Source: Leptolyngbya sp. CCY15150
Lineage (GTDB): Bacteria > Cyanobacteriota > Cyanobacteriia > RECH01
Assembly: GCF_016888135.1 (NCBI RefSeq)
Contig: NZ_JACSWB010000157.1
Location: 62,001 to 126,000 of the forward strand
Length of the DNA stretch: 64,000 bases
Direction of reading: 5' to 3'
Every line of letters starts with the position of its first letter. Within the stretch, counting starts at the first letter, position 1. Under the pieces are notes generated by a model that searched no databases, had not been told where the DNA came from, and worked only from the letters and a program-made list of their open reading frames with translations. A program made the translations under genes and the position numbers. Shown here in pieces: positions 2,053-30,298 of this stretch.

Positions 2053-4773
2053 TTAGGAGGTGGCGATCGCCACGTCTGGCTGGAGATCGGTGGCTCTGTC
2101 GGCCATCTCTGTGGCATAGGCAGGGGTGACGTCTTTGTTATACAAGACTGAGTCTAGACGACAGCCTTTGTAAGCGAGGACGTAGAGTTCCTTCATATCC
2201 CGAATCAGGGGATAGCGAGGGTTGGCCCCTGTACATTGGTCATCGAAGGCCTGGTCGGCCATCTCTTCAAGCTGCTCATAGAAAGCCTGCTCGTCCTCAG
2301 ATAAGACTTCCTTAATGGTCATGGGCATATCGAGCTCTTTCTTCAGGTTTTCGATAGCATTGACCAGCAAGTCAACCTTTTCATCCTCGGTGGTGCCCCC
2401 TAGTTGCAGATGGTCGGCAATGCGGGCATAGCGCCACTTGGCATTGGGGTATTTGTATTGAGGAAAGATCGCTTGCTTGAAGGGAATATCGGTGGAGTTA
2501 TAGCGGATCACGTGGGAGATCATCAGGGCGTTGGCTAAGCCATGGGGCACATGGAAGGTCGAGCCAAGCTTGTGGGCTAGGGAGTGGCAGACGCCTAGAA
2601 AGGCATTGGCAAAGGCCATGCCGGCCATGGTGGCTGCATAATGCACCTTTTCCCTGGCCTTGGGATCATTGGCACCATTTTTGTAGGCGCTGGGTAGGTA
2701 CTTAAACAACAGGCGAATGGCTTCTAGGGCCAAGCCATTGGTGAACTCGGTTGCTAGAACCGAGACATAGGCTTCTAGGGCGTGGGTGAGAGCATCCACA
2801 CCACCGTAGGCCGTGAGCGTCTTGGGCATGTGCATCACCAAGGACGGATCGACGATGGCCATGTTGGGGGTGAGGGCATAGTCCGCTAAGGGGTATTTAA
2901 TGCCGGTGCTGTCATCGGTGACCACCGCAAAGGGCGTCACTTCAGATCCAGTTCCGGAGGTGGTGGGCACGGCAATTAGCATGGCTCTATCACCCAAGGG
3001 CGGCAGTTCATAGACGCGTTTGCGGATATCCATAAACCGCATGGCCAGTCCATCAAACTGGATTTCCGGATGTTCATACATCAGCCACATCACCTTAGCC
3101 GCATCCATCGGTGATCCACCGCCAATGGCAATAATCACATCGGGCTGGAAGCTATTCATCACCGCCACCCCTTTCATGACAGTCGATAGGGATGGATCAG
3201 GCTCAACATCATAGAAGGTTTGGTGCTTCAGCCCAATTTCCTCCAATACTTCCGTCACACTTTCTGTGATGCCTAGGTTGTAGAGAGGTTTATCGGTGAT
3301 GATGAAGGCTCGCTTTTTGCCCGCGAGTTCCTTGAGGGCAACGGGTAAGGCTCCACAGCGGAAGTACACCTTGGGCGGCACACGGAACCACAACATATTC
3401 TCCCGACGTTCCGTCACGGTTTTAATGTTGAGCAAATGGTGGGGCGCAACGTTTTCGGAAACAGAGTTTCCGCCCCAGGTGCCGCATCCTAGGGTCAAGG
3501 ATGGATCGAGCTGGAAGTTATACAGATCACCGATCGCCCCTTGGGAGGCTGGCGTATTGATCAAAACCCGCGCGGTTTCCAGATGAGACTTAAACTGGCG
3601 AATTCGGTCTTCGTTGTTGGGATGGGTGTAGAGAACGGAGGTATGGCCATGCCCCCCAAAGGCAATCAGCGCTTCCGCCTTGGTGACCGCTTCCGAAAAG
3701 TCTGACGCCCGATACATGGCGAGGATCGGCGATAGTTTTTCATAGGCAAAGGGTTCCTCGGGGGCGATCGCTTCCACTTCACCAATCAAAACCCGAGCTC
3801 CCTTGGCTTGCTCGATGCCGGCTAGATCTGCCAGGACATCAACGGGCTGCCCCACGATCGCCGCATTCAAACGACCATTCACCAAGATAATGTTGCCAAC
3901 CTTCTGCCGTTCCTCTTCATTGAGAATATAGGCACCGCGTTCGAGAAACTCTTGGCGCACCTGATCATAGACCGAATCCACCACCACGACGGACTGCTCA
4001 CTGGCGCAGATCATGCCGTTATCGAAGGTCTTGCTGATCAGAATAGAGCTGACCGCCATCTTGATATGACAGGTTTCATCAATCACCGCTGGGGTGTTGC
4101 CGGCTCCCACGCCGAGAGATGGATTGCCCGAAGAGTAGGCTGCCTTGACCATACCCGGCCCGCCGGTCGCCAAGATCAGCTTCACATCGGGATGCTGCAT
4201 CAACTGTTGCGAGAGGGGAACGGTTGGTTCATCAATCCAGCCGATGATATGCTCTGGGGCTCCGGCTTTCACGGCTGCTTCTAGGACAATTCGGGCGGCG
4301 GCAATGGTGCAGCCTTTAGCGCGAGGATGGGGCGAGAAGATAATGGCGTTGCGGGTTTTGAGGGCTAGCAGGGCCTTAAAGATCGCCGTAGAGGTGGGGT
4401 TGGTGGTGGGGACAATGCCGGCTAGGATGCCCACGGGCTCAGCAATGCGCTGAAAGCCAAAGGACGGATCTGATTCGATCACACCGCAGGTTCTTTCGTT
4501 CTTGTACTTGTTGTAAATCATCTCCGAAGCAAAGTGATTTTTGATCACCTTGTCTTCCACAACGCCCATGCCGGTTTCCTCCACCGCTAGCTTGGCTAGG
4601 GGGATGCGGGCGGTGTTGGCAGCCAGAGCCGCTTGCTTGAAGATGACATCGACCTGCTCCTGCGTAAACTTGGAGTAGGTTTCTTGAGCCGCCTTGACGG
4701 ACTGAACCAATGTTTCCAGCTCGTCTGAGTTCGTAACGGACATGGGGGTTGCAAGTAGATTCGAGATCGTCAT
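2053..4773 (-). CDS. adhE: Bifunctional acetaldehyde/alcohol dehydrogenase AdhE
   Basis: This 906-residue fusion reduces acetyl-CoA to acetaldehyde and then to ethanol with NADH, a fermentative electron sink that forms spirosomes in other bacteria. Residues 20-440 are the CoA-acylating aldehyde dehydrogenase, with catalytic Cys256 in the motif GMICASE. Residues 460-880 are the iron-dependent alcohol dehydrogenase, with GGGSPMDAAK for NAD binding and the metal-binding histidines in HSLAHKLG and VPHGLANA. GGAGAG lies 5 nt before the ATG. The gene is monocistronic with a 700-nt gene-free upstream region. It makes ethanol from the acetyl-CoA that NifJ, encoded further along, produces. Confidence 0.97.
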   Translation of the reverse strand: MTISNLLATPMSVTNSDELETLVQSVKAAQETYSKFTQEQVDVIFKQAALAANTARIPLAKLAVEETGMGVVEDKVIKNHFASEMIYNKYKNERTCGVIESDPSFGFQRIAEPVGILAGIVPTTNPTSTAIFKALLALKTRNAIIFSPHPRAKGCTIAAARIVLEAAVKAGAPEHIIGWIDEPTVPLSQQLMQHPDVKLILATGGPGMVKAAYSSGNPSLGVGAGNTPAVIDETCHIKMAVSSILISKTFDNGMICASEQSVVVVDSVYDQVRQEFLERGAYILNEEERQKVGNIILVNGRLNAAIVGQPVDVLADLAGIEQAKGARVLIGEVEAIAPEEPFAYEKLSPILAMYRASDFSEAVTKAEALIAFGGHGHTSVLYTHPNNEDRIRQFKSHLETARVLINTPASQGAIGDLYNFQLDPSLTLGCGTWGGNSVSENVAPHHLLNIKTVTERRENMLWFRVPPKVYFRCGALPVALKELAGKKRAFIITDKPLYNLGITESVTEVLEEIGLKHQTFYDVEPDPSLSTVMKGVAVMNSFQPDVIIAIGGGSPMDAAKVMWLMYEHPEIQFDGLAMRFMDIRKRVYELPPLGDRAMLIAVPTTSGTGSEVTPFAVVTDDSTGIKYPLADYALTPNMAIVDPSLVMHMPKTLTAYGGVDALTHALEAYVSVLATEFTNGLALEAIRLLFKYLPSAYKNGANDPKAREKVHYAATMAGMAFANAFLGVCHSLAHKLGSTFHVPHGLANALMISHVIRYNSTDIPFKQAIFPQYKYPNAKWRYARIADHLQLGGTTEDEKVDLLVNAIENLKKELDMPMTIKEVLSEDEQAFYEQLEEMADQAFDDQCTGANPRYPLIRDMKELYVLAYKGCRLDSVLYNKDVTPAYATEMADRATDLQPDVAIATS

Positions 4774-12069: not shown

Positions 12070-12275
12070 CGTCTCATACGAACAAATGATCTTATAACAG
12101 CCTATCACAACAGGCTGAGCTTGTCGCTTTGCTTCGCCTTCTCCCAATCACATTAAGGGGGACGCATCGCTTCGAGGCAATATGCCAGTGTTAAACGTGG
12201 CGCTTTGGCTTAATGCAAGGCATTCTACGAGAGGGGCGATCGCCCTTGTATGTCTACTTACCAAGGTAGGGAAAC

Positions 12276-15065: not shown

Positions 15066-15226
15066 AGAGGTACTCCAAACAGGGGTGAAATAGCCACAAC
15101 ATCCGCCACGAACCTGGGGACTGGATGCTTATACAATTCAGTTTAGATCTAGTCTACGGTCGTCGGTTGTTGTTGTGAAAGGAGATTGGGGAGCTATGTT
15201 CAGGAGGCGATCGCTCTCCAAGACAA

Positions 15227-15259
15227 AGCGGATAGGATCAACCATCGATCCCATCCGCT
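15227..15259 (-). terminator. Imperfect 12-bp hairpin after pfkA
   Basis: AGCGGAT-A-GGATC (15227-15239) pairs with GATCC-C-ATCCGCT (15247-15259) with one internal mismatch and a 7-nt loop. On the minus strand it is followed by TTTGTCTT. It is placed to end the nifJ-flavoprotein-pfkA transcript. Confidence 0.55.
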
Positions 15260-15292
15260 ACAGTGCTGAGTTGGACTCGCTTCGAGCCTTGG

Positions 15293-16507
15293 CTAATCGA
15301 TGACAGGGATGGCGGTTGAGCGGGGCAAGGAGGAGGCATTTTGGTTAGCAATATCAATGCCGATGTAGATGCCTAGAGATTCGGCCACCTGCACCATGCA
15401 GCTATCGAGCTGGACTGGGCCAGGGCAGCGATTTTCCTGGTGGCATTGGCGAATGATCGGCATGACGTCATCTAGGGAGCAGGCCTGCACCTGACCGTTT
15501 CGCCAGACTACGAGCTGGTTGTAGGTGCCTTCGGCAATCAAGTCGATGGCTTTTTTACCAAAGGCAGTACCCAGTAAGCGATCGAAGGCATTGGGGGTGC
15601 CGCTGCGCTGGATATGGCCTAACACGTTGGAGCGGGTATCCACTTGGGTGAGTTCGCAGGCCGATTCGTCATGGACGCCGCATAGTTCTCGGCTACGCTG
15701 ATGAATTTGTTCAGCGAGGCGATCGCCAATATATTTTTCTTTTTCGCCATCTTGGTTTTTCACACCCTCAGAGATGACTACCAGGGCAAACTTACGGCGA
15801 TTGTGGCGCAGGCTTTCCAAGCGCTGGCAGATCTGATCCACGACCATGCTGTTGAGGATAGGCACTAGTTCGGGAATGAGGATCACATCCGCGCCCCCGG
15901 CAATACCGGCATTTAGCGCTAGGTGTCCGGCATCCCGCCCCATCACCTGCACCACCATGACGCGATCGTGGCTGGCGGCGGTGAAGGTGAGGTCGTAGAG
16001 CATCTTGGTGACCGTATCAACGGCGGTGTTGTAGCCCACCGATTGCTCCGTGAAGGGCACATCGTTATCGATGGTTTTGGGGATGCCGATGACATTCCAG
16101 TTGCCTTTTTCAGCCAGTTGGCAAATAATCTCTAAACTGCCATCGCCGCCAATGGCAATCAGGGCATCAAGACCCAAACGTTCGTAGCCCGCTAGAATCT
16201 CTGCCTGCACATGGGGATCACGGGGATTGCCGCGACTGAGAGAACCGAGGATACTGCCGCTGAGAAACTGCAGGACATCTAGACCATGCAAAAGTCCAGG
16301 AATATCGTAACCATGGTCAGATAGCTTGAGTTCTTCGGGAGAACAAAGCCCCTGAGTAACCCGAATGAAGCCGTCTGTGCCGTAGGGAATGCCATAGACA
16401 TCCCATCCTTGCCGGCTGGCGCATTTCACCACCGAGCGGATCACTGCATTCAAGCCGGGGCAATCACCCCCGCTGGTTAAGATACCAATTCGTTTACGAC
16501 GTTCCAT
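15293..16507 (-). CDS. pfkA: 6-phosphofructokinase
   Basis: This enzyme phosphorylates fructose 6-phosphate in glycolysis. It shows [14 protein letters not shown] at the N-terminus, GGDGS (the ATP-type signature, not the GGDDT of PPi-dependent enzymes), the catalytic PKTIDNDV and the substrate motif [10 protein letters not shown]. At 404 residues it is somewhat longer than bacterial PfkA. The ATG at 16507 has CGGAGA 6 nt upstream. The in-frame ATG at 16522 would place that Shine-Dalgarno inside the gene. It is the last gene of a probable operon with nifJ. Confidence 0.94.
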
Positions 16508-16561
16508 AGATATTCTCCGCATGGACTAGACCCTTAGACGACTGGAGGGACAGCTCGTCTG

Positions 16562-17587
16562 CTACCGCACCAGATCCACTGAACTCATCCAATCCGGTTG
16601 ATAGGTTTGGATGGCTTTCATGTATTGAGCCCGCTCAAACTCGCTAGGGTTGGGACACCGTAGCTGGCTCATGCTGCCTCGCAGTTGCTGTACTGATTCA
16701 TAATCATGCTCTTGGAGCCAAGTCTGCAACTCTTGTTCGATATTCTTCAAATGTCCGATGCCGTGGCGGAGCAGAACGCTGACCAGTTGGGTGACCGTTG
16801 CACCGGCCATGAGCATTCGTACCACATCTTGTCCTTTATGAATGCCGCTGGTGGCGGCAAAGTCTACGGGGATGCGTCCGTAGAGCAGCGCAATCCAGCG
16901 CATGGGTAGGCGCATATCTTGGGGGGTGCTGAGCAGTACGTGGGGACGCACTTCTAGGTCTTCGATATCGATATCGGGTTGATAAAAGCGGTTGAACAAC
17001 ACCAGACCATCGGTACCCGCCTCATACAGTTGGTGGGCCATGGAGGCCATGTTGCTGAAATAGGGGCTGAGCTTCACCGCCACGGGGATTTGCACCACTG
17101 ACTTGACAGCTTTGAGGATGTCGAGGTATTGCTGCTCAATATCGGCGGCGCTGGTGTGGAGATCGGTGGGAATGGCGTAGATGTTGATTTCCAGGGCATC
17201 GGCTCCGGCCGCTTGGATCTGGCGGGCATAGTCTGTCCAGCCGCCTAGGGTAGAGCCGTTGAGGCTGGCGATGATGGGAATATCGACCATGTCTTTGGCG
17301 GCGCGGATGTGGTCGAGGTAGATGTCAGTGCCCACGTGGAACAGGTCGGGTTCGGGGAAGTAGGTGAGGGCTTCGGCGAAGCTTTCGGTGCCGTATTCCA
17401 AATGATGGTGGAGTTCTAGGCGATCGCTCCGTAGCTGTTCTTCAAAGAGTGAGTGGAGAACAACGGCAGCAGCGCCAGCATCTTCCATCTGCCGCAGGTG
17501 CTGGATGTCTTCGGTGAGGGGGGCGGCAGCGCCTACTACCAAGGGCGATCGCAGCTCTAAGCCTAGGTAGGTTGTAGTCAAGTCCAT
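16562..17587 (-). CDS. Dihydroorotate-dehydrogenase-like flavoprotein
   Basis: This is a 341-residue TIM-barrel flavoprotein related to dihydroorotate dehydrogenase and the C-terminal part of dihydropyrimidine dehydrogenase. Visible features are SPLVVGAAAPLTED, IASLNGSTLGGW, ALEINIYAIP, VAVKLSPYFSN and FAATSGIHKGQDV, which build the FMN and substrate site. AGGAGA lies 8 nt before the ATG. It begins 68 nt after nifJ and ends 54 nt before pfkA. This partner of nifJ recurs in cyanobacteria from memory. The context suggests ferredoxin-linked redox chemistry rather than pyrimidine synthesis, but the substrate is unknown. Confidence 0.86.
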   Translation of the reverse strand: MDLTTTYLGLELRSPLVVGAAAPLTEDIQHLRQMEDAGAAAVVLHSLFEEQLRSDRLELHHHLEYGTESFAEALTYFPEPDLFHVGTDIYLDHIRAAKDMVDIPIIASLNGSTLGGWTDYARQIQAAGADALEINIYAIPTDLHTSAADIEQQYLDILKAVKSVVQIPVAVKLSPYFSNMASMAHQLYEAGTDGLVLFNRFYQPDIDIEDLEVRPHVLLSTPQDMRLPMRWIALLYGRIPVDFAATSGIHKGQDVVRMLMAGATVTQLVSVLLRHGIGHLKNIEQELQTWLQEHDYESVQQLRGSMSQLRCPNPSEFERAQYMKAIQTYQPDWMSSVDLVR

Positions 17588-17655: not shown

Positions 17656-20600
17656 CTATGGGGCTGTGGGCTCCGAGGGAGGGCTGGTTTGCCCGTTCAT
17701 CTGCCGTTCTGCCATGGATTGGTAGAGATGCCAGCGGGTGTTGACGTCGCCTTGGGCAGCTTTCAGGAGGCGTTTGGCATCATCAGGTTTGGTGCGGGTC
17801 AGCATCTTGAAGCGATTTTCGCGGTACATGGACTGTTCCACGGTGGCCTTGGGCGATCGCGAGTCTAGCTGTAGGGGATTTTGTCCAGCATCGGCGCGGC
17901 GTGGGTCGTAGCGGTAGAGCAACCAGCGCCCAGAATCCACCAGGGCCTTTTGCTGCTGCATGCCTTCGGTCATGTTGATGCCATGGGCGATGCAGTGGGA
18001 GTAGCAGATGATCAGCGAGGGGCCGTCGTAGGCTTCGGCTTCCAGGAACACCCGCAGGGTATGTTCATCCCTGGCTCCCATGGCGACGCTAGCCACATAG
18101 GCGTTGCCGTAGGTCATGGCCATGAGACCGAGGTCTTTCTTGGGAGCCGGTTTACCGCCGGCAGCAAATTTGGCCACGGCTGCCCGAGGCGTGGCTTTGG
18201 ACATTTGTCCGCCGGTGTTGGAATAGACTTCGGTGTCGAGCACCAGGATATTGACATTGCGACCGCTAGCCAGGACGTGATCTAAGCCGCCGTAGCCGAT
18301 GTCGTAGGCCCAGCCGTCGCCGCCGATGATCCAGACGCTTTTCTTCACCAGGTAGTCGGCCAGGGACTGGAGATTCAGCAACTTGGCCCGGAGCTGGACG
18401 GTGGTTTGGGTGGTGGACTCTACCGATGAGCCACCGCTGACGTTCACCGGCACCCGGCCGCCATGGTCGCCAATTTGGGCCAGCCAAGCGGCGATCGCCT
18501 CCTTCACTTGGGCTACTTGCTGCCGCTGTTCGGCAATATCGGCTTCGTCCCGTTGGGAATTGTTGAGAATTGCCGTGGCTAGATCAACGGCGATGGGCGA
18601 ATCTTGCAGGTCAATGGCGAGGTCGTGGAGCAATTCCCGAGCATACTGGGCTTGCTTATCGACGGAGACCCGGAAGCCGAGGCCAAATTCCGCGTTATCT
18701 TCAAACAGCGAGTTTGACCAAGCGGGGCCACGACCCTCGGCATTGTGCGTCCAAGGCGTTGTCGGTAAGTTACCGCCGTAGATCGATGAACAGCCGGTGG
18801 CGTTGGCAACCAACATGCGATCGCCAAAGAGTTGCGTCGCCAGCTTAATGTAGGGAGTTTCACCACAGCCCGCACAGGCTCCGGAGAACTCAAACAGGGG
18901 CTCCTGCATCTGTTGCTGGGCGATCTTATGCAGGTTTAATGCTAAGCGATCGGGATTGGGAACCTTGAGGAAAAAGTCCCAGTTATCCCGCTCTTGCTCT
19001 CGCAGCGGTAATTGGGGAGCCATATTGATCGCTTTCTTGCGGGGCTCTGCCTTATTTTTGGCAGGGCAAACATCAACACAAAGAGCGCAGCCCGTACAGT
19101 CTTCCGTCGAGACCTGAATGGTAAACTTCAAATCCGACCAAGCTTTATCTTTGGCATCGATACTCTTAAAGGTTTCCGGTGCGTCGTCCAGCATTTGGGG
19201 CTCATACACCTTGGAGCGAATCACCGCATGGGGACAGACCATGACGCATTTGCCACACTGGACGCAAACATCTGGATCCCACACCGGCACCTCATGGCCC
19301 ACATTGCGCTTTTCCCACTGGGAGGTGCCGCTAGGATAGGTACCGTCTACGGGTAGGGCGCTCACCGGCAGGTCGTCGCCTTGGCGAGCCATCATCTGTC
19401 CCAACACATTGCGCACAAAGGCGGGAGCGGTATCGGGCACCCAGGAATGGGGCTCGGCAGCGGCATCAGGAATGGCACCCACCGGAATCTCGTAGAGATG
19501 TTCTAGGGTTTGATCGACGGCTTTGATGTTCATCTGCACCACTTCCTCACCCTTCTTGCCGTAGGTTTTGCGAATCGCTTTTTTGATTTGAGCGATCGCT
19601 TCTTCCCGAGGTAAGACACCGGAAAGGGCAAAGAAACAGACCTGCATGACGGTATTAATCCGTCCGCCCATGCCCGCCTCCCGAGCCACTTGCAGCGCAT
19701 TGATGCAGTAGGGTTTAACTTGCTTGGCGACAATAGCGTCTTGCAGCGATCGCGGCAGTCTTGCCCAGGTTTCTTCCGGATCGTAGATGCTGCTCACCAG
19801 GAAAGTTGCGCCGGGCTCTGCCTCTTTGAGTAAGTCAAATTTTTCGACAAATTCCCACTGGTGGCAGGCAATAAAGTTGGCGCTGGTAATCAGATAGGTG
19901 GAGTGAATAGGATCGGGGCCAAAACGCAGGTGGGATACGGTGACCGAGCCGGATTTTTTGGAGTCATAGACAAAATAACCCTGGGCATAGTTATCTGTTT
20001 CTTCGCCAATAATCTTAATCGAGTTCTTATTTGCGCCTACGGTGCCGTCGGAGCCTAAGCCATAGAAAATAGCCCGGACGACGTTATCAGGCTCGGTGGA
20101 GAAGCTGGGATCTACGTCCAAGGACGTCAGAGTGACATCGTCGATGATGCCCACTGTGAAGTGATTACGCGGTTCATCAACCGCTAAGGTATCCAAAACC
20201 GACCGCACCATGGCGGGGGTAAATTCCTTCGACGACAGTCCATAGCGACCGCCGACGACATGGATGGAGCGGTTTAGCTCTCGCACAGCGCACAGGACAT
20301 CAAGATACAGTGGTTCGCCAGCACTACCCGGTTCTTTGGTGCGATCGAGAACTGCCAGATGGGTGACTGTTGCTGGGAGGGCTGCAATGAAGTCCACCAT
20401 CTCAAAGGGGCGATAGAGCCGCACCTTGAGCACGCCCACCTTTTCCCCCTGGGCCACCAAGGCATCCACCGCTTCCTGAGCCGTTTCACAGCCCGATCCC
20501 ATGAGCACCACCACCCGATCGGCATCCGGTGCGCCGTAATACTCATAGAGTTGATACTGCCGGCCGGTGAGCGCGGCGAAATCATCCATCGCCTGTTGCA

Positions 20601-21330
20601 CAATGCTTGGACAGGCATTGTAGAACGTATTGACGGTTTCCCTAGCTTGGAAATATACATCAGGATTTTGGGCCGTGCCGCGAATGACAGGGCGATCGGG
20701 CGTGAGGGCCCGGTGGCGATGTTCAACAATCAGGGATTGGGGAATAAAGTCCACCAAGGTGTCATCCGCTAACAGCTCCACTTTTTGGATCTCGTGGGAG
20801 GTGCGGAAACCATCAAAGAAATGCAGGAACGGAATGCGCGATTCTAAACTGGCCCGGGTGGCGATCGCCGCCATATCCTGAGCTTCCTGCACCGAAGCAG
20901 AACAGAGCAATCCACAGCCCGTGGCCCGTGCCGCCATCACATCACTGTGATCCCCAAAGATCGATAGCCCCTGGGCCGCCAGCGATCGCGCCGCCACATG
21001 CAGCACCGCCGGGGTCAGCTCCCCGGCGATTTTATACAGGTTGGGCAACATCAACAGCAGACCTTGAGATGCGGTAAACGTGGTGGTGAGAGAGCCTGCT
21101 TGCAGTGCCCCATGCACCGCTCCGGCTGCCCCTGCTTCACTTTGCATCTCAACGACAGAGGGGACGGTGCCCCAAAGATTGGGCTGCTCTGCTGATGCCC
21201 AAGCATCCGACCACTCACCCATGGGCGAGGCCGGGGTAATGGGATAAATGGCGATCACTTCACTCAGGCGGTAGGCCACCCGAGCAACGGCTTCGTTGCC
21301 ATCAATGGTTGCAAATGTTCTCTCTGTCAT
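17656..21330 (-). CDS. nifJ: Pyruvate:ferredoxin (flavodoxin) oxidoreductase
   Basis: This 1224-residue homodimeric enzyme oxidises pyruvate and CoA to acetyl-CoA and CO2 and reduces ferredoxin or flavodoxin. The N-terminal pyrimidine-binding domains (EVIAIYPITPASPMGEW) precede a ferredoxin-like domain with two [4Fe-4S] motifs, CVQCGKCVMVCP (about 693) and CTGCALCVDVCP (about 750). The proximal cluster cysteines lie in CAGCGETPY and ATGCSSIYGG. The thiamine-diphosphate motif starts at GDGWAYDIGYGG (about 1007). It is full length. It starts the nifJ-flavoprotein-pfkA operon, 434 nt downstream of the hox operon. It supplies acetyl-CoA to AdhE. Confidence 0.97.
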   Translation of the reverse strand: MTERTFATIDGNEAVARVAYRLSEVIAIYPITPASPMGEWSDAWASAEQPNLWGTVPSVVEMQSEAGAAGAVHGALQAGSLTTTFTASQGLLLMLPNLYKIAGELTPAVLHVAARSLAAQGLSIFGDHSDVMAARATGCGLLCSASVQEAQDMAAIATRASLESRIPFLHFFDGFRTSHEIQKVELLADDTLVDFIPQSLIVEHRHRALTPDRPVIRGTAQNPDVYFQARETVNTFYNACPSIVQQAMDDFAALTGRQYQLYEYYGAPDADRVVVLMGSGCETAQEAVDALVAQGEKVGVLKVRLYRPFEMVDFIAALPATVTHLAVLDRTKEPGSAGEPLYLDVLCAVRELNRSIHVVGGRYGLSSKEFTPAMVRSVLDTLAVDEPRNHFTVGIIDDVTLTSLDVDPSFSTEPDNVVRAIFYGLGSDGTVGANKNSIKIIGEETDNYAQGYFVYDSKKSGSVTVSHLRFGPDPIHSTYLITSANFIACHQWEFVEKFDLLKEAEPGATFLVSSIYDPEETWARLPRSLQDAIVAKQVKPYCINALQVAREAGMGGRINTVMQVCFFALSGVLPREEAIAQIKKAIRKTYGKKGEEVVQMNIKAVDQTLEHLYEIPVGAIPDAAAEPHSWVPDTAPAFVRNVLGQMMARQGDDLPVSALPVDGTYPSGTSQWEKRNVGHEVPVWDPDVCVQCGKCVMVCPHAVIRSKVYEPQMLDDAPETFKSIDAKDKAWSDLKFTIQVSTEDCTGCALCVDVCPAKNKAEPRKKAINMAPQLPLREQERDNWDFFLKVPNPDRLALNLHKIAQQQMQEPLFEFSGACAGCGETPYIKLATQLFGDRMLVANATGCSSIYGGNLPTTPWTHNAEGRGPAWSNSLFEDNAEFGLGFRVSVDKQAQYARELLHDLAIDLQDSPIAVDLATAILNNSQRDEADIAEQRQQVAQVKEAIAAWLAQIGDHGGRVPVNVSGGSSVESTTQTTVQLRAKLLNLQSLADYLVKKSVWIIGGDGWAYDIGYGGLDHVLASGRNVNILVLDTEVYSNTGGQMSKATPRAAVAKFAAGGKPAPKKDLGLMAMTYGNAYVASVAMGARDEHTLRVFLEAEAYDGPSLIICYSHCIAHGINMTEGMQQQKALVDSGRWLLYRYDPRRADAGQNPLQLDSRSPKATVEQSMYRENRFKMLTRTKPDDAKRLLKAAQGDVNTRWHLYQSMAERQMNGQTSPPSEPTAP

Positions 21331-21764: not shown

Positions 21765-22343
21765 CTAGAGTGATGCTTCAGTCTCGATAGAATGAGTTAC
21801 AAATTCAAGAAGTGTTGACATAGCTTGGGCGATCGCGGCTTGGGTGAGGGGGGAAACGGTAATGCCGATATCAAAGGTTTGGGTGGGTATGAGCAAACGA
21901 TAGGCGGTGGGCGTTGCGCCATAGAGCTGGCGGGCGAGGTCGAGGAGCAATCGCATATCGAGGTGATGTCCTAAGGTGGGTGCAGTTGCCTTAGCTACTA
22001 AGCGCTCTAATCTAGGTTGGGTCAGGAGTTCTCCGGGCATAGCCGCATCGACAAAGATCACGGTTTGAGCGTCAGCTATCTCGGCCGCGAGTTCGGGAAG
22101 CAGTTGATGCACCGAGAGCGATCGCACCCCTGTCCAGGCATGGGTGGCAATCTGATCCGCCATCTGCTCAGCGATGTAGTAGCCTGCGCCGTCATCCCCA
22201 CGCAGGGTGTTGCCGTAGCCGATGATGAGGATAGCGGTGGGTTTAAGATCCAAGGGGCGATCGCTCCTTACGTAGGTGGACTCTAATTCAACGAGGCTAC
22301 GTTTCTGGGTTTCGACGATGCTTAACCCTTGTCTGGTAAGCAT
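21765..22343 (-). CDS. hoxW: Hydrogenase maturation protease HoxW
   Basis: This 192-residue endopeptidase of the HycI/HyaD family cleaves the C-terminal tail of the hydrogenase large subunit after nickel insertion. The core motif GYGNTLRGDDGAG, the acidic FVDAA and HHLDMR provide the metal-contacting Asp and His residues expected of the family. An extra 35-residue N-terminal segment precedes the core, so a later start is possible, although no other ATG fits better. It is the last gene of the operon, 48 nt after the phosphatase gene. Its substrate should be HoxH, which has a 25-residue tail. Confidence 0.92.
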   Translation of the reverse strand: MLTRQGLSIVETQKRSLVELESTYVRSDRPLDLKPTAILIIGYGNTLRGDDGAGYYIAEQMADQIATHAWTGVRSLSVHQLLPELAAEIADAQTVIFVDAAMPGELLTQPRLERLVAKATAPTLGHHLDMRLLLDLARQLYGATPTAYRLLIPTQTFDIGITVSPLTQAAIAQAMSTLLEFVTHSIETEASL

Positions 22344-22391: not shown

Positions 22392-23558
22392 TTAGCAATA
22401 GTCAATAGAGACTTCCTTTTGATGCTGACGCAGAAATTGCACCAAGTCTTCAATGAGACTACGGCGAATGGAAATGTTTTTAGGCAGAAGCGGATTTTGA
22501 TAGAATTCATTAATTTGTTGACCTACCAAAAATAGAATTGAATCCGCCTGCAGGATTTCCCGCGCTAATAAATAGGCTCCATTATTATCAAACTTAAGTC
22601 GGGTGATATCACAGTGACAGGCTTTGATGTATTCGGTAGCCTTAGAAAGGGTTAAAATACCTTCTGTGACCAAATCAATACAGCTTAGAAGACCAATGGG
22701 CGGCAGCTCTTTACGAATGGTAGATAAGTCCATGTCGATGGTTTCGCCCAGATAGGTGGCGACGATATTTCCGGTGGTGCCACCACAAATCACCTTGCGT
22801 CCCTCAAAGCTGAGCAAGCGGTTAACGTAGTCTTCATCGCGCTCTTCGTCGAGGGGTGGGCCGGTGAAGATCATCAGGGGATTGCGGCGACGGACATAGA
22901 TGCCGACAAAGGATGCATCATCGCCGATTTCCCCTTGATAAAGAGAGTAGGTTTTTTCAATGACGTCGTGGACAATGGTGCGGGCGGTGCGCGGCTTTTG
23001 GTCTAGCACCTGTTCGATATGAGTGGTGATATTATCCCAACCCCAGCCAAAGTTGAGCGCTACGCCCATACCGGCATAAAGCACGCCGTCACTGATGGCT
23101 CCCAGAAAATCACCTCGCTCTAGGGTGCCTTCAGATAGAGAAATTTTGCGCCCTAGGATTTCCTCCATGTGGGTTTTGAGTTCCATGCGCCGGCCGTTGC
23201 GGATGTAGATGACGGCAGGATTATCAAAGTTGATGACGGTAAAGCTGTTGGTTTCGCAGTTGACCTGGATGATGGTAAAGGTTGAGTAGGCAATATTTCT
23301 TACCTGGCAAATGGGTAAGGTGGCGATAATAGTTTTCAGCACCTCCTCCAACGGCACCTCCGCTGTCAACATAGTCAACAGGATTTCCGTCGTCAGGGTA
23401 GCCAGAATATTGGCCTTGACACCGCTTCCCAGTCCATCAGACAGCACAATCGTGGCGGCTTTATCAGTTTTTAGAAACTTCACCTTGTCGCCACATAGCT
23501 CTTCGCCTTTCTTGTTCAGGCTGAAGGGATAGATATCGAGGAAGTTATCAACGGTCAT
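22392..23558 (-). CDS. SpoIIE/PP2C-type serine phosphatase in the hox operon
   Basis: This 388-residue cytoplasmic protein has a PP2C/SpoIIE catalytic domain in residues 1-222. Metal-binding acidic residues are visible in LSDGLGSG (Asp41), AISDGV (Asp157) and GEIGDDASF (Asp213-Asp214). A C-terminal region of about 160 residues (GRKVICGGTTGNIVATYLG onward) is not a catalytic element I recognise from general PP2C enzymes. It begins 25 nt after the PAS gene. From memory, similar SpoIIE proteins accompany sensory [FeFe] hydrogenases in anaerobic Firmicutes. I infer a role in signalling hydrogen or redox state. Its phosphoprotein substrate is unknown. Confidence 0.85.
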   Translation of the reverse strand: MTVDNFLDIYPFSLNKKGEELCGDKVKFLKTDKAATIVLSDGLGSGVKANILATLTTEILLTMLTAEVPLEEVLKTIIATLPICQVRNIAYSTFTIIQVNCETNSFTVINFDNPAVIYIRNGRRMELKTHMEEILGRKISLSEGTLERGDFLGAISDGVLYAGMGVALNFGWGWDNITTHIEQVLDQKPRTARTIVHDVIEKTYSLYQGEIGDDASFVGIYVRRRNPLMIFTGPPLDEERDEDYVNRLLSFEGRKVICGGTTGNIVATYLGETIDMDLSTIRKELPPIGLLSCIDLVTEGILTLSKATEYIKACHCDITRLKFDNNGAYLLAREILQADSILFLVGQQINEFYQNPLLPKNISIRRSLIEDLVQFLRQHQKEVSIDYC

Positions 23559-23583
23559 GTCCTATCCTATTGTGCGATCGCCC

Positions 23584-24090
23584 CTAAAGAACCTCTTTTT
23601 CCAGCATCTGAATAATTTTCAGCAGACTCACCTTTGTTTCCGCTGTGGTTTCTCCCAGTAATCCAGCAATTTCCTGCACCACCTTCATTTGATGATCAAC
23701 GACTTCATTAACTTTGCGAATCGTATCTCGCTTCAGCTTTTGCAACTCGCGCCGCTGGCTTAGTTCGTGGCTGAAATCTACCATAATGCAGGCGATCACC
23801 CCTTCTTCCTCAATGGAAAAGACCATCTGCTTCACAAATAGATTATAGGAAGGATATTCCCGAGTCTGACGTACAACCCTATCCTTGTCCCAGGCTTGCT
23901 GAAAATCGTCCATGCTATCTAGGATGGTGGAGGCAGGCTGTCCGATGATGTCGTCGCCATTGACCTGGAACATGGTGCAGAAAGCAGGATTCACCAGTTT
24001 GACGTAGAAATTGGCGTCCACCACAATTAAACCGTTGGGATCATAGTCCCACAGCAGTCGCCAGAGATGATTGGAATGGGGGTCAGACAT
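23584..24090 (-). CDS. Stand-alone PAS-domain protein in the hox operon
   Basis: This is a 168-residue protein with a PAS fold in residues 8-108 (DPNGLIVVDANF, NPAFCTMFQV, DIIGQPAS) and a helical tail in 109-168 rich in charged heptads. The tail segment EIAGLLGETTAETK (about 140-153) recalls, from memory, the C-terminal PAS region of sensory [FeFe] hydrogenases in clostridia. There is no kinase, cyclase or DNA-binding domain, so it probably signals to a partner, most likely the phosphatase 25 nt downstream. The bound ligand, if any, is not identifiable. Confidence 0.85.
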   Translation of the reverse strand: MSDPHSNHLWRLLWDYDPNGLIVVDANFYVKLVNPAFCTMFQVNGDDIIGQPASTILDSMDDFQQAWDKDRVVRQTREYPSYNLFVKQMVFSIEEEGVIACIMVDFSHELSQRRELQKLKRDTIRKVNEVVDHQMKVVQEIAGLLGETTAETKVSLLKIIQMLEKEVL

Positions 24091-24196
24091 GATAGTCTCT
24101 GGTGGATAATTTTGAGGAATGGTACGTCATCAATCGAGTCAGCGTCTTTGGTTGGCAGCCCTTAACCCAACCCGCAGGTTAGGAAAGATATGAGAC

Positions 24197-24475
24197 CTAG
24201 GGCGATCGCGCCAGGGTTGCTTGAATTTCCGGTAGAATATCTTGGGTGAAGATGGTTTCTACGTTTTGAGGGCTAATATCGACAAAGCAGCGATCGCCCA
24301 GCTTCATGACGATACCGTGACTACAGGTTTCTAGACAAAAGGATCCTTTGAGTTCGACAACGTTTTCAAGCTCATGGGCTTGGATTAAGGACTGCAGCTT
24401 GGGTAAAACTTCATAGACCCCTAGCTGGTGACAGGCGGATCCCATGCAGAGAAATAAGTTTTCCTTGGTCATCAT
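24197..24475 (-). CDS. Thioredoxin-fold [2Fe-2S] ferredoxin
   Basis: This 92-residue protein carries a NuoE/HoxE-like [2Fe-2S] domain: Cys in LCMGSACHQLG (C-x4-C) and GSFCLETCSHG (C-x3-C). That cysteine spacing is the one for thioredoxin-like ferredoxins that pass electrons to NADH-linked hydrogenases. Two consecutive ATGs start the frame. GAGG lies 6 nt before the second (24472), which is probably used. It begins 58 nt downstream of hoxH and is followed by the PAS gene. It may hand electrons to the diaphorase or act as a redox sensor. Confidence 0.87.
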   Translation of the reverse strand: MMTKENLFLCMGSACHQLGVYEVLPKLQSLIQAHELENVVELKGSFCLETCSHGIVMKLGDRCFVDISPQNVETIFTQDILPEIQATLARSP

Positions 24476-24533: not shown

Positions 24534-25961
24534 CTAATCACGAAATACCTCCTGAATCACGTGACCATCGGAGCCCAGAAGCTGCACATGGAGGGGCATC
24601 TGTCCGGCAGCGTGGGTGGAGCAAGATAGACAGGGATCGAAGCAGCGGATGCCGGCTTCCACACGGTTGAGAAATCCTTCGGGAATATCTGAGTTATGAA
24701 TATAGTGTTTGGCAATTTGCGCCACGGTTTTATTCATAGCTAAGTTATTTTGACCGGTGGCAATAATCAGATTCACCTTTTGAATCAGACCATGTTCATC
24801 AACCTTGTAGTGGTGGAATAGAGTACCTCGGGGAGCTTCGCTGACGCCGATCGCTTCCAGCTCATTCACCCCACCCTCGGCACGAACACGGGTGGAGACA
24901 ATATCAGGATCGTTGACGAGATCTTGGATATGTTCCAAGCAGGCTAGGATTTCAATCAGGCGAGCATAGTGGTAGAGGAACGACGAGGTGGGTACGCCAC
25001 CGGCGCGATCGCGGAATTCTTTCAGTTCCTGGTCGGCTTTAGGGGTGCCGATGTAGCGGCAGACATTGAGCCGTGCTAGGGGCCCCACTCGATAGATGCC
25101 GGCGGGATAGCCCAAGGGTTTGTAATAGGGGAATTTTAGGTACGACCATTTTTCCACCGCTTCGCCAAGGAAGCTAGCGTAGTCATCTTCACTGAGACCA
25201 TCGGCAATAACGGAGCCGTTGCTATCGACAAAGCGTAGATGTCCACCGTAGTGATCCCACTTACCATCTTCGCCGACCAGTCCCATAAATAAGGAGGGAA
25301 ATTCGCCAAAAATGCCGATCTCATCCTTCAGTTGCTGATCGATCAAGGTTTTGAAGAGGTTCAGCGCGGTGGTGATTGTTTCAAAGGATTCTGGAAGGCG
25401 ATCGCGAATCCAGGTACGACCCTCTTCCGACAGGGGCGATCGCACCCCACCGGGTACCGCCCAAGCGGCATGGATTTTGCGTGCTCCCAGCAATTCAATA
25501 ATCGTTTGCCCAAACTGACGCAGACGAATGCCGGCCCGCGCTAGGTCTGGATCGGCAGCAATTAAACCAAAGACATTGCGCTTAGCTGGGTCGCTATCCC
25601 AACCCAGCAGAAAATCAGGACTGCTGAGGTGGAAAAAAGATAGGGCATGGGATTGGGTGATCTGAGCTAGGTTCATCATCCGCCGCAGCTTTTCCGCCGC
25701 CACGGGAATTTTCACGGCTAGGATCTTATCGCCGGTTTTGGCAGCAGCCAGTAAGTGGCTGACGGGACATATGCCGCAGATGCGCGCCGTAATGCCGGCC
25801 ATTTCTGTAAAGGGCCGTCCCTCACAGAACTTTTCAAACCCTCGATATTCCACCACGTGAAACCGAGCGTCATCCACTTCCCCCGCATCGTTGAGGAAAA
25901 TAGATATCTTGGCATGGCCCTCAATGCGAGTGACCGGATCAATGACAACTGTTTTGGACAT
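24534..25961 (-). CDS. hoxH: Bidirectional [NiFe]-hydrogenase large subunit HoxH
   Basis: This 475-residue subunit carries the NiFe(CN)2CO active site. The L1 motif [10 protein letters not shown] supplies Cys62 and Cys65. The C-terminal L2 motif DPCLSCSTH supplies Cys444 and Cys447. Cleavage after His450 would remove a 25-residue tail, the job expected of HoxW. GGGAGAGG stands just before the ATG. The whole hox cluster is in the order hoxE-F-U-Y-H, all on the minus strand. The complex reversibly couples hydrogen to NAD(P)H in the cytoplasm. Confidence 0.97.
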
Positions 25962-26026: not shown

Positions 26027-26575
26027 CTAGCCAAACTTAATCATCGATCGCCCTTCCATCACCGGCATTTCGCCCTTCAGCAACGGTTCTAGGGTCGCCC
26101 GAATGCGATCGGCAGAGGGGGGACAGCCGGGCATAAAGATATCCACCGGCACTACCTCATGCACTGGAACAACTCGGTCGAGTAATTCCGGCACAATCCC
26201 CGGTTCATCGGGTAATTGGGGCGTCACGTCGCCTAGTTCCAGATAGGCCCGCTTGAGGACAGCACTAGAACTCCCCAGCATATTGCGCATGGCAGGTACG
26301 TTAGCCGTCACAGCGCAGTCGCCAAAGGAAATCAGCAGTTTAGTTTTACGCCGCACGTCGTAGATTAGCTCTAGGTTCTCCTGGTTGGCGATCGCCCCTT
26401 CCACCAGGCATACATCCACTCCCTCAGGATAGGTTTTGAGATCACAGCCCACGGGACTAAATACCACATCAACGGCGGCAGCTAGATCAATCAGCCATTC
26501 GTCAAGATCGAGAAATGACATATGGCAGCCAGAACAGCCCGCCAGCCAAACTGTGGCAAATTTTATCTTGTCCAT
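26027..26575 (-). CDS. hoxY: Bidirectional [NiFe]-hydrogenase small subunit HoxY
   Basis: This 182-residue small subunit holds the proximal [4Fe-4S] cluster that links the active site to the diaphorase part. Cluster ligands are visible in [24 protein letters not shown] and [11 protein letters not shown]. It lacks a twin-arginine signal, in keeping with a soluble cytoplasmic hydrogenase. Its start codon overlaps the end of hoxU by 13 bp, so translation is probably coupled. GGGAG lies about 9 nt upstream inside hoxU. Confidence 0.96.
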
Positions 26576-27279
26576 TGTTGTTGCTCCCGTGCAGTCACCA
26601 AAAACTCTAACTTAGCGCGATCGCCTACCTTTTCTGCCGTGGTATCGCCTTTGCGGAAAATGGCTCCTGTGGGGCAGGCATCAACACATTTGCCGCAGGA
26701 GGTACAGGCATCTACCTCACCCCAGGGTTGATTTAGCCCCGACACAATGTAGCAAGCCGCGCCCCGCTGAGCCACATCCCACACATGGGCTCCTTCCACT
26801 TCATCGCAGACCCGGACGCAGCGCGTACAGAGGATACAGCGGTTGTGGTCGATGCCAAACTGTTTGTGGGAAATATCAACGCCGCGATCGGGAAAGCGAT
26901 AGGTAAACCGGGAGTGATCCATGCCCACCTGCACCGCCACATCCTGCAATTCACAGTTGTTATTGGCAACACAGACCGAGCATACATGGTTGCCTTCGGC
27001 AAACAGCAGCTCCACGGTCATGCGGCGATAGGTCTGGAGTTTTTCCGTATTGGTTTGAATATCCATTCCCTCCGCCACTTCCGTGACGCAGGCAGGCAGT
27101 AACTTATTGATACCCTTTACTTCGACAAGACAAAGGCGACAAGCTCCCACATCCGATACGCCCTCTAGATGACAGAGGGTGGGAATGGGCACTCCTGCCT
27201 CCTTGGCAGCCTGCAGAATCGTTGCGCCTTCTTCAATGGCGATCGCCGTTCCGTCAATGGTTAATGTTTTTACAGACAT
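26563..27279 (-). CDS. hoxU: Bidirectional hydrogenase diaphorase subunit HoxU
   Basis: This 238-residue subunit wires the flavin site to the hydrogenase dimer. The N-terminal plant-ferredoxin-like [2Fe-2S] domain has Cys residues in CHLEGVSDVGACRLC. A HxxxC-type cluster site follows near residue 100, then two [4Fe-4S] sets, CILCTRCVRVC and CTSCGKCVDACP. The layout is that of NuoG N-terminal modules. GAGGAA precedes the ATG. It starts 45 nt after hoxF and overlaps hoxY. Confidence 0.96.
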   Translation of the reverse strand: MSVKTLTIDGTAIAIEEGATILQAAKEAGVPIPTLCHLEGVSDVGACRLCLVEVKGINKLLPACVTEVAEGMDIQTNTEKLQTYRRMTVELLFAEGNHVCSVCVANNNCELQDVAVQVGMDHSRFTYRFPDRGVDISHKQFGIDHNRCILCTRCVRVCDEVEGAHVWDVAQRGAACYIVSGLNQPWGEVDACTSCGKCVDACPTGAIFRKGDTTAEKVGDRAKLEFLVTAREQQQWTR

Positions 27280-27324
27280 GGATGTTCCTCACTGGCAACT
27301 GGCGCTCATGGTTATCTCTGGGAA

Positions 27325-28971
27325 TTAAGGGGATACAGAGGAGGCGATCGCATCGGACTGTACCGAATGTCCGTTCAAATAGGCTGGCGTTTGCAAGAGA
27401 GCATCATATTCTTCCTTGAAATAGCGCAGCGTACTGAGCACAGGGTTAGGAGCCGTCATCCCTAGCCCGCAAAGGCTGGTCTCTTTCACCATGTAGCACA
27501 GTGCCTCCATCGTATCTAGATCGGCCTGGGTGGCTTGGCGATTGACGAGCTTATTCAACAGCGCATAGAGTTGTACCGTACCGGTGCGACAGGGAACACA
27601 TTTGCCACAGGTTTCCCCCCGACAAAATTCCATGTAAAACCGGGCTACCTCCACCATGCTAGTTTCGTGATCCATGACCACCATCCCCCCCGATCCCATC
27701 ATCGAGCCGACCTTCATCAGAGAATCGTAGTCCACCGGGGTATCGAGCAGCGTGGCTGGAATACAGCCGCCCGATGGCCCCCCCGTTTGCACGGCCTTCA
27801 CCATGCCATCGGGCACCCCGCCCCCCATCTCTTCCACAATTTCCCGCAGCGTGATGCCCATGGGCACCTCAATCAAGCCGTTGTTGCGGATTTTGCCGGT
27901 GAGGGCAAAGATCTTGGTACCCTTGCTGGTTTCTGTACCAATGCCGGCATACCAATCTGCGCCGCCTTTAATGATCGCGCTGATATTGGCTAAGGTTTCC
28001 ACATTGTTAATCAGCGTTGGACAGTGCCATAGCCCCGACTCCGCCGGATAGGGCGGTCGCGGGCGCGGATTGCCCCTGGCTCCTTCAATGGAATGGATCA
28101 ACGCCGTTTCTTCACCGCAGACAAAGGCTCCAGCTCCAATGCGAATGTCGATCTTAAAGTCAAAGGCAGAGTCAAAGATCTGGCTGCCTAAGAGGCCATA
28201 TTTCTTAGCCTGCTGAATAGCTTTCTGCAGCCGCTGGATCGCCAGGGGATATTCCGCCCGCACGTAGATATAGCCGTGGTTTGCGCCGATAGCATAGCCA
28301 GCGATCGCCATCCCTTCCAAGATCAGATGGGGATCACTTTCCAGCACACTGCGATCCATGAAGGCCCCCGGATCGCCCTCATCGCCATTGCAGATCACAT
28401 ACTTTTGATCGCCGGGCATTTTACCCACCGTGGCCCATTTGAGACCCGTGGGATAGCCACCGCCGCCCCGTCCTCGCAGACCGCTACGGGTGATTTCATC
28501 CACCACCTCCGCCGGGGTGAGGTCATAGAGTGCTTTATAGAGCGCTTGATAGCCACCCGCTGCAATGTAGTCCTCAATTCGCTCCGGATCCAGCTTGCCG
28601 CTGTGCTGCCGAACAATTTTCATCTGGCGAGAAAAGAAGGGATGGTGAACATCTCCCTGGATCGGCGTTGCCTCACCGCCGTGCAGAGCGTCAATAATGC
28701 TGCTGGCGGTTTCCGGTGTCACCTCTTCGTAGAGCAGCTCATCCGGATCCACCTGCACTAAGGGCCCACGCCCGCAAAAGCCCATACAGCCGACGCCTAC
28801 CACCTCAACGCGATCGCCTAGGTTGGCATCCTCCACCGCGTTTTGCATATTGCGCATCACGTCTAGCGCATTAGCCGCCCGGCAGCCGGTGGAAGTGCAG
28901 CAATGTACTCGAATACCTCGCTGGCGGTGCTTTTCAGTCTCTGCAATCTCTAAGAGTTCTGCCCAGTCCAT
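27325..28971 (-). CDS. hoxF: Bidirectional hydrogenase NADH-binding subunit HoxF
   Basis: This 548-residue subunit binds FMN and NAD(P)H. It starts with a degenerate NuoE-like [2Fe-2S] domain ([12 protein letters not shown] and [10 protein letters not shown]), followed by the NuoF-like core with the glycine-rich [14 protein letters not shown] and [14 protein letters not shown]. The [4Fe-4S] motif is [10 protein letters not shown] near residue 460. AGGAGA stands just before the ATG. A 114-nt spacer with a short tandem repeat separates it from hoxE. Confidence 0.96.
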
Positions 28972-29043
28972 ACTATCTCCTCTTATCTAGGGATGAACCG
29001 CATCGAAGGGCCAGCCATTCATCCAAATCTTGCCGTCGGGGAA

Positions 29044-29078
29044 TCGGTACTGAAGTCGGTACTGAAATCGTTACTGAG
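29044..29078. repeat. Short tandem 12-bp repeat in the hoxE-hoxF spacer
   Basis: TCGGTACTGAAG, TCGGTACTGAAA and TCGTTACTGAG follow one another directly, ending 7 nt before the hoxE stop codon. The repeat lies inside the operon, so it is transcribed. It has no coding role. Confidence 0.7.
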
Positions 29079-29085
29079 TCGGTGT

Positions 29086-29625
29086 TTAACTCGACTGCCA
29101 AGCCCGGATTTTGGCGATCGCTGCCTCAGGCTCCACCTTGCCAGCAATACTGCCATCAAACACCACCGCCGGGGCAATACCACAGGCTCCTAAACAACGG
29201 GCCGCCATCAGCGATACTTGGTCATCCTCGGTGGTCGATCCCACTTCAATGCCCAACTCCTTCTCCAACGCTTCTACCACCTTGCCACCACCCTTCACAT
29301 AGCAGGCGGTACCCATGCAAACGACGCAGGTGTGAGCCCCATTAGGCTTCAGGGAAAAGAGATGGTAAAACGTTGCCACGCCGTAGACACGGCTGAGGGG
29401 TAGTTTTAGCCCACGGGCAATGTAGGTTAAGGTATCTTCTTCGAGGTATCCAAAGGCTTCCTGGGCAACGTGCAGCACCTCAATCAGCGCATCTGATCGA
29501 TATTGGTTGCGCTTCATGGTGATGTCGATTTTCTTGAAGCGGCGATCGCCTTCAGCCTTAGGAGATTTGGACGTCCCCTGAACAGGTTTTGCATCTGGCA
29601 CAGCTTGAACCGACGTAGACGGCAT
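29086..29625 (-). CDS. hoxE: Bidirectional hydrogenase diaphorase subunit HoxE
   Basis: This is a 179-residue NuoE-like subunit, first of the hox operon. The [2Fe-2S] ligands are in [12 protein letters not shown] and [23 protein letters not shown] is the usual family block. The frame is open to 29718, but the ATG at 29625 has GGAG 6 nt upstream and gives a normal length. HoxE is the ferredoxin- and membrane-interacting diaphorase subunit of cyanobacterial Hox, which allows electrons from reduced ferredoxin or NAD(P)H to reach hydrogen. Confidence 0.95.
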
Positions 29626-30298
29626 AGTGGTCTCCTCTCGTGGCAGCAGGTGGGCTCGGTTCTTGGCCATTGAGCCTAGCAGGGCGTCAAGGGTCGAGAA
29701 GCAGGGACGGTTACCCACAGAAAAACGGCGTCAGCGATCGCAGGTCATCGATCATCGCAAAGGCAGCCAAGGTAATTGGATGCGCACCTCAGCCCGTGAG
29801 AAGGCGATCGCGAACAGTTCCGTTCACCCCATCACTATATCAATGGCGATCGCATCTCGAATCATTTTTATAGAATTAAAAAATGTTTCTATAGGATTGG
29901 ACTCACTTCAGTGAATGTTTGTATAGATTTAGTTCAACTATCATTTAGTCTCTCATAGGTAAACCCAATGATGATCTTTGCAATCAACTCGTGATTTCAG
30001 GCTAAAAGCCCTTGATATTCATGACTTCTAGCCGATACGGCTAGGGAAAAGGTTCTGTCATAAACCTAAGGTTGTATCGTAAAACACCGCATCTTAAACA
30101 AGACTTCAAATGCTATGATTAGGGTGATTTAAGACTACTAAGTATCCCGAAGACCGCCTTGTTTTTTGCAACTTATATGTTGTTTTTGTGGTTTTTTCCT
30201 ATTAGTTGAATCTACCCTTGATCAGCGATCAGCAAGAATTGGTTAGTGCATGAATGATGATCTAGGTTCATCGATCGCTTGATGAATAGAGACGGGCC
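29626..30298. other. Gene-free region upstream of the hox operon
   Basis: About 670 nt between hoxE and the trxA terminator have no credible gene. The hox promoter should lie here. The part from 29860 to 30200 is AT-rich. A TATAAA-like -10 hexamer is present on the minus strand near 29865, about 240 nt before the hoxE start, but a matching -35 is not clear. Confidence 0.45.
29882..29930. promoter_or_regulatory. Candidate operator region upstream of hoxE
   Basis: Two direct repeats (AATGTTTCTATAG at 29882 and AATGTTTGTATAG at 29914) lie one above the other with a 32-bp period, about three helical turns. Between them is TCACT-TC-AGTGA (29903-29914), a 5-bp inverted repeat. This is a plausible binding site for a dimeric regulator of the hox operon. 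It does not match the LexA, NtcA or CRP consensus that I know. Confidence 0.4.

Follow-up and report, generated by a model that had tools for sequence, protein, structure and literature searches.

Introduction

HoxJ, the PAS-containing partner in the regulatory [NiFe] hydrogenase system HoxBC-HoxJ, is a histidine kinase. Among the [FeFe] hydrogenases, HydDB recognizes a group C3 that is putatively phosphatase-linked (PMC5037454), and H2-dependent signalling is itself only putative for the sensory enzyme HydS (PMC8924675). The hfsABCD operon of Thermoanaerobacterium encodes both a PAS-bearing [FeFe] hydrogenase, HfsB, and a serine phosphatase, HfsC (PMC5707799, PMC11837493); deletion of hfsB in this organism raises adhE expression and ethanol, with wild-type hfsC and hfsD being required (PMC5707799). 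Regulation of, and sensing around, the bidirectional hydrogenase of cyanobacteria is a long-standing open question. Surveys of cyanobacterial hox genes mention open reading frames (ORFs) between hoxH and hoxW, three of them in Anabaena PCC 7120 (PMC3858816), and identify no module of the kind described below (PMC3858816, PMC2674450); another survey of hox loci mentions no such module (PMC5186783). No earlier description was found in the literature searched, which consisted of open-licence papers, so that its silence is weak evidence.

Results

Organization of the locus

In the window, the whole 64,000-nucleotide stretch of Leptolyngbya sp. CCY15150 DNA that was analysed, the order of genes along the minus strand is hoxE, hoxF, hoxU, hoxY, hoxH, a ferredoxin gene (Fd), a PAS gene, a SpoIIE-type phosphatase gene and hoxW (Table 1). 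Coordinates and strand confirm the statement of the earlier note that three contiguous genes on the hox strand separate hoxH from hoxW, and its range of 25 to 106 nt for the gaps agrees with the measured 58 (hoxH/Fd), 106 (Fd/PAS), 25 (PAS/SpoIIE) and 48 nt (SpoIIE/hoxW). Its description of the trio as "inserted" has to be withdrawn, as Fd-PAS-SpoIIE at hox is a conserved arrangement. No minus-strand terminator-like site was found between hoxH and hoxW, and a promoter scan returned 7 candidates against 9.7 expected. The CGIC and DPCLSCSTH motifs are invariant in the HoxH alignment. Comparison with a close relative (L006) gave dN/dS values of 0.116, 0.104 and 0.027 for the Fd, PAS and SpoIIE genes, respectively, indicating that the trio is under strong purifying selection.

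Table 1. Features of the hox locus and its fermentation context, in window coordinates.
Feature	Position	Strand	Basis of assignment
hoxE, hoxF, hoxU, hoxY	26027..29718	-	ORFs; relatives with identical order
hoxH, large subunit, bidirectional [NiFe] hydrogenase	24534..25961	-	PF00374
Fd, thioredoxin-fold [2Fe-2S] ferredoxin (predicted), 92 aa	24197..24475	-	PF01257
Stand-alone PAS protein, 168 aa	23584..24090	-	PAS_9
SpoIIE/PPM-type serine phosphatase (predicted), 388 aa	22392..23558	-	PF07228
hoxW, hydrogenase maturation protease	21765..22343	-	TIGR00072, E 3.5e-18
Pyruvate:ferredoxin oxidoreductase (PFOR)	17656..21330	-	PF01855 and other POR domains
adhE-type bifunctional aldehyde/alcohol dehydrogenase	2053..4773	-	PF00171 and PF00465

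Fermentation genes make up the wider context. The PFOR gene lies 434 nt downstream of hoxW and is not counted as a member of the module, and adhE lies about 18 kb beyond the module on the strand of the hox-PFOR cluster. The minus strand between adhE and the PFOR group also holds a possible defence island (10416-13874), composed of a D12-class adenine methyltransferase (11122-12147), a GmrSD-type restriction domain protein (12276-13874) and an ORF with no Pfam match (10416-11150). PFOR is followed, in the same orientation, by genes for a TrkA-type NAD-binding protein, a phosphofructokinase-like ORF and a dihydroorotate dehydrogenase-like protein (14349-17587).

The three proteins

The match of the Fd to PF01257 (E 1.7e-4) falls below Pfam's cut-off. 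Four residues (C10, C15, C47 and C51) are invariant in an alignment of 12 homologues, and the nearest solved chain by sequence is the C-terminal part of T. maritima HydA (7p5h, E 2.2e-7), with NuoE/HydC-type subunits also among the nearest. The protein is thus a putative binder of a [2Fe-2S] cluster with a predicted thioredoxin fold.

The PAS protein (PAS_9, E 2.7e-6) is composed of a PAS core (residues about 9-105), a long helix (107-147) and a second helix (150-167), with the turn between the helices situated at the LLGETTAETK motif in the AF2 model (pLDDT 80.8, lower in the tail). The model, which ends in a predicted helix-turn-helix at the conserved LLGE motif, resembles the PAS-DHp parts of sensor kinases. 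No kinase domain was found in the 168-residue protein, and no cofactor is predicted for its PAS domain.

The phosphatase contains a SpoIIE domain (PF07228, E 4.8e-15) in which Asp24, Asp41, Asp157, Asp213 and Asp214 are invariant among 34 homologues and align with residues of B. subtilis SpoIIE. The AF2 model (pLDDT 89.2) adopts a PPM fold for which Foldseek returned the SpoIIE, RsbU and RsbX phosphatases. Fold and metal-binding Asp residues place the protein in the SpoIIE/PPM family, and phosphatase activity is predicted. Its C-terminal alpha/beta domain (residues about 225-388; window positions 22392-22890, minus strand) contains GPP, CGG and TEG motifs, has no Pfam match and acquired no separate identity among the best 50 Foldseek matches. 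This domain is conserved, also in the HydS-linked phosphatases described below, and could be a binding site for a ligand or for the PAS protein. Three of the four other SpoIIE-domain proteins of the genome match the SpoIIE model much more strongly than does the window phosphatase, as expected if the latter is a distinct family. No STAS, anti-sigma/HATPase or kinase gene was found in the hox-module cluster; 11 STAS matches and several anti-sigma-type ATPases are encoded elsewhere in the genome, so a phosphatase partner acting in trans is possible.

Co-occurrence with hox genes

A scan of genome contigs identified the phosphatase gene at 44 loci, of which 35 carry a cyanobacterial label and nine come from other groups, with Leptolyngbya sp. 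DLM2.Bin15 as the closest named relative. The order Fd-PAS-SpoIIE recurs in most of the 44 loci, and hoxH lies upstream on the same contig in 22 of the 35 cyanobacterial ones, a recurrence that argues against a chance arrangement. At these 22 loci, other hox genes continue to the contig limit, and hoxW is often found downstream. Elsewhere, the module is away from hoxH and adjoins adhE and hoxW (L008, L010), has hoxW and apparent hyp genes as neighbours (L009), or stands with no hydrogenase genes nearby (L007, L011, L012, L013). Even so, hoxH is present in 12 of 13 cyanobacterial genomes checked via loci of non-adjacent type (L006 included), the lone exception being a metagenome-assembled genome (L016).

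Co-occurrence was counted in two genome samples. Among 291 Cyanophyceae genomes, 84 contain hoxH and 16 the phosphatase, and every carrier of the phosphatase has hoxH (16/16, P 7.7e-10, a value that ignores shared ancestry); at the level of genera, the figures are 11/11 against 49/130 (P 1e-5, again ignoring shared ancestry). In the second sample, drawn from across the phylum, hoxH is present in all 12 carriers. When both samples are united, all 24 carriers are hoxH-positive, with the phosphatase within about 6 kb of hoxH in 17 and away from it in seven. Adjacency to hox, which the earlier note had named as support where cyanobacterial homologues are concerned, or co-occurrence with it is thus the general pattern, and ordinary cyanobacterial PP2C or PAS proteins unlinked to hydrogenases are ruled out by it. 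The converse does not hold: 68 of the 84 hoxH-positive genomes of the class sample have no phosphatase, and Hox therefore works without it.

The module of family f13 is dispersed, with its parts retained. One member (G187) carries Fd-PAS directly behind hoxH and SpoIIE 950 kb away, and another (G109) has Fd-PAS and SpoIIE-hoxW as separate pairs. G151 showed no Fd next to PAS, and the search for PAS in G394, an Okeania genome assembled from a metagenome, found none. Among the phosphatase matches there was no genome of f7, a large hoxH-rich family that may be that of Nostoc, so the three ORFs of Anabaena PCC 7120 are probably not Fd-PAS-SpoIIE. A search for the [FeFe] hydrogenase domain (PF02906, Fe_hyd_lg_C) gave nothing in the genome of the window and nothing in the 31 carrier cyanobacteria covered; the earlier note had seen no [FeFe] enzyme in the operon. 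Seven loci from Planktothrix and Arthrospira (L024, L027, L030, L035, L046, L080 and L081) carry an ORF of 549-550 aa between hoxF and hoxU; hcp has been reported between these genes in Lyngbya (PMC2674450).

Relationship to sensory [FeFe] hydrogenases

The genomes of 133 non-oxygenic Cyanobacteriota contain a more distant phosphatase, about 29-36% identical over both domains. At ten such loci read at length, the gene preceding the phosphatase encodes a HydS of 560-580 aa with Fer4, Fe_hyd_lg_C, a PF04060 Fe-S domain and a C-terminal PAS domain. Upstream there is, at most of the ten, a small thioredoxin-like protein, and downstream a second [FeFe] enzyme. The neighbour of HydS in L098 is adhE. 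Comparison by hhalign superimposes residues 11-168 of the PAS protein on residues 411-568 of HydS (probability 99.6, E 1e-23), so that by sequence the PAS protein corresponds end to end to the C-terminal PAS and tail of HydS. An HMM of the tail (the last 51 residues alone), run on 1.6 Mb of DNA rather than whole genomes, matched nothing other than 70 stand-alone PAS proteins and 27 HydS frames, counts in which overlapping loci figure repeatedly; the 27 HydS frames lie beside the phosphatase in non-photosynthetic Cyanobacteriota. Judging by this phosphatase neighbour, the Vampirovibrionia HydS probably belongs to subgroup C3.

The likeness of the PAS tail and phosphatase to partners of sensory [FeFe] hydrogenases, proposed in the earlier note, is upheld by these comparisons: outside oxygenic cyanobacteria the phosphatase adjoins a group-C HydS or, in KSB3, a HydABC-type [FeFe] hydrogenase. 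The sensory association therefore stands, and the assignment to Firmicutes derives from the published descriptions of hfsABCD and of HydDB group C3. Because the PAS protein and phosphatase are homologous to the HydS system, the genes co-occur with hox and no [FeFe] domain is present, the module appears to represent the output part of a C3-type sensory system, minus its HydS head, in association with the bidirectional [NiFe] hydrogenase.

The headless form extends to Chloroflexota, where it is rare (2 of 201 in the sample), Planctomycetota, Desulfobacterota and KSB3, and a HoxH-like gene is present in eight of the nine non-cyanobacterial carrier genomes. The five that were read, four from Anaerolineae and one from Planctomycetota, have hox genes in operon order; in one of these, adhE adjoins hoxE, with PAS-SpoIIE about 8 kb away. 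The KSB3 carrier is without HoxH, and its Fd-PAS-SpoIIE is followed by HydC-, HydB- and HydA-like [FeFe] hydrogenase genes. In a phosphatase tree with 28 headless-type sequences (20 from Cyanophyceae and 8 from other phyla), the sequences of Cyanophyceae group together (99/99), adjoining Anaerolineae and within headless-type relatives of several phyla, and the HydS-linked phosphatases of Vampirovibrionia stand apart (support 88/69, on long branches). Given that the headless form is common to several phyla, the module did not originate in cyanobacteria, and the tree position suggests that this form is older than its cyanobacterial use or came from outside. A beheading of HydS within cyanobacteria is not supported, as the headless types split from the HydS-linked ones of Vampirovibrionia. 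An intermediate-looking arrangement occurs at 2688-6579 of L038 (labelled Candidatus Dependentiae, a bin label that may be wrong), where two thioredoxin-like Fds are followed by an [FeFe] hydrogenase of 484 aa lacking PAS, then by a stand-alone PAS and SpoIIE.

Discussion

The reading that we favour, with somewhat better than even confidence, is that Fd-PAS-SpoIIE constitutes a redox-signalling module, a HydS-less output half of the C3/hfsABC kind coupled to Hox. Since the cyanobacterial carriers in both samples all possess hoxH, it probably reports hydrogen or the redox state while the cells ferment in the dark. Building on the observed anatomy, homology and co-occurrence, we infer that in dark anoxic fermentation the [2Fe-2S] protein would be reduced by the Hox diaphorase, by NADH or by reduced ferredoxin and would relay the redox state to PAS, whose helical hairpin (LLGETTAETK) could then bind and switch the SpoIIE-type phosphatase in trans. 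The phosphatase would remove the phosphate from a partner, most probably a STAS-type regulator with its gene at another site, and thereby adjust expression of hox, PFOR and adhE. The conserved order, the co-occurrence with hoxH even when unlinked, the retention of scattered parts, the match of the PAS protein to the HydS C-terminus and of its model to PAS-DHp, the conserved catalytic Asp residues, the hfsB phenotype, and the position of adhE beside the module (L008/L010) or beside HydS (L098) speak for signalling; the lack of a predicted PAS cofactor and of a STAS, anti-sigma or kinase gene in the cluster speaks against it, as do the seven of 24 carriers with the phosphatase away from hoxH and the 68 hoxH-positive genomes that do without it. 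A bolder version, to which we give roughly one chance in four, has Hox replacing HydS as the sensor, with the electrons that it gains from H2 or NADH reaching PAS by way of the [2Fe-2S] protein and so setting the phosphatase. If true, a metabolic [NiFe] hydrogenase would double as the cell's hydrogen and redox sensor for fermentation genes.

The position of the trio between hoxH and hoxW would also suit accessory or maturation factors of Hox that exert post-translational control rather than control of gene expression, with the Fd as an extra electron-transfer subunit and PAS and phosphatase governing assembly or HoxW processing. SpoIIE adjoins hoxW in L009, L010 and L089 though not behind hoxH, what appear by sequence to be hyp maturation genes follow in L009 and L010, and the Fd resembles electron-transfer domains of the HydA/NuoE type. 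Most hoxH-positive cyanobacteria are nonetheless without the phosphatase, which is therefore not needed for maturation, and the HydS relationship together with the published hfs mutant phenotype points to signalling; we consider this explanation unlikely, at a little under one in five. We judge it less likely still that the phosphatase is a general energy-stress enzyme of the RsbP/RsbU kind hitchhiking at the hox locus. The PPM fold is close to SpoIIE and RsbU, and the genome has STAS matches and anti-sigma-type ATPases, but the full co-occurrence with hoxH in both samples, even when unlinked, the specific HydS type of the PAS tail and the weaker SpoIIE-model match than that of three of the genome's four other SpoIIE-domain proteins all argue otherwise. 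That the missing HydS head marks a decaying [FeFe] sensor remnant kept by chance is very improbable and largely refuted by the conservation seen, namely dN/dS values of 0.03-0.12 that denote strong purifying selection, phosphatases that are 64-80% identical from one cyanobacterial family to another and have their catalytic residues intact, retention of scattered parts, and conservation of the headless form in several phyla.

The signalling module that we propose offers named genes for deletion and a path, open to testing, by which the redox state of the hydrogenase would reach gene expression, and control of hox, PFOR and adhE bears on dark hydrogen and ethanol yield. As it isolates the signalling half of the putative C3 system, the phosphatase output could be studied without an oxygen-sensitive H-cluster protein.

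The mode of output in this module is distinct from that of the HoxBC-HoxJ system, with which it shares a PAS-containing partner of a [NiFe] hydrogenase: the module has no kinase domain, its output would be a phosphatase and its hydrogenase is the catalytic bidirectional enzyme. It has in common with RsbP/RsbU and SpoIIE the PPM phosphatase fold and the metal-binding Asp residues, whereas its PAS is a separate protein, its phosphatase carries an extra C-terminal domain lacking a Pfam match, and its cluster is without the STAS or anti-sigma/HATPase genes of RsbP/RsbU partner switching. As in the published description of hfsABCD, a PAS protein and a serine phosphatase are grouped, although HfsB carries an H-cluster domain and is accompanied by the [FeFe] enzyme HfsD. 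With the C3 systems the module shares a PAS output domain with a matching C-terminal tail, an adjacent SpoIIE-type phosphatase homologous over its full length, and a small thioredoxin-like protein predicted to bind a [2Fe-2S] cluster; it differs in that the PAS protein has neither the hydrogenase nor the C-terminal [4Fe-4S] domain, and in that the partner is the [NiFe] Hox enzyme.
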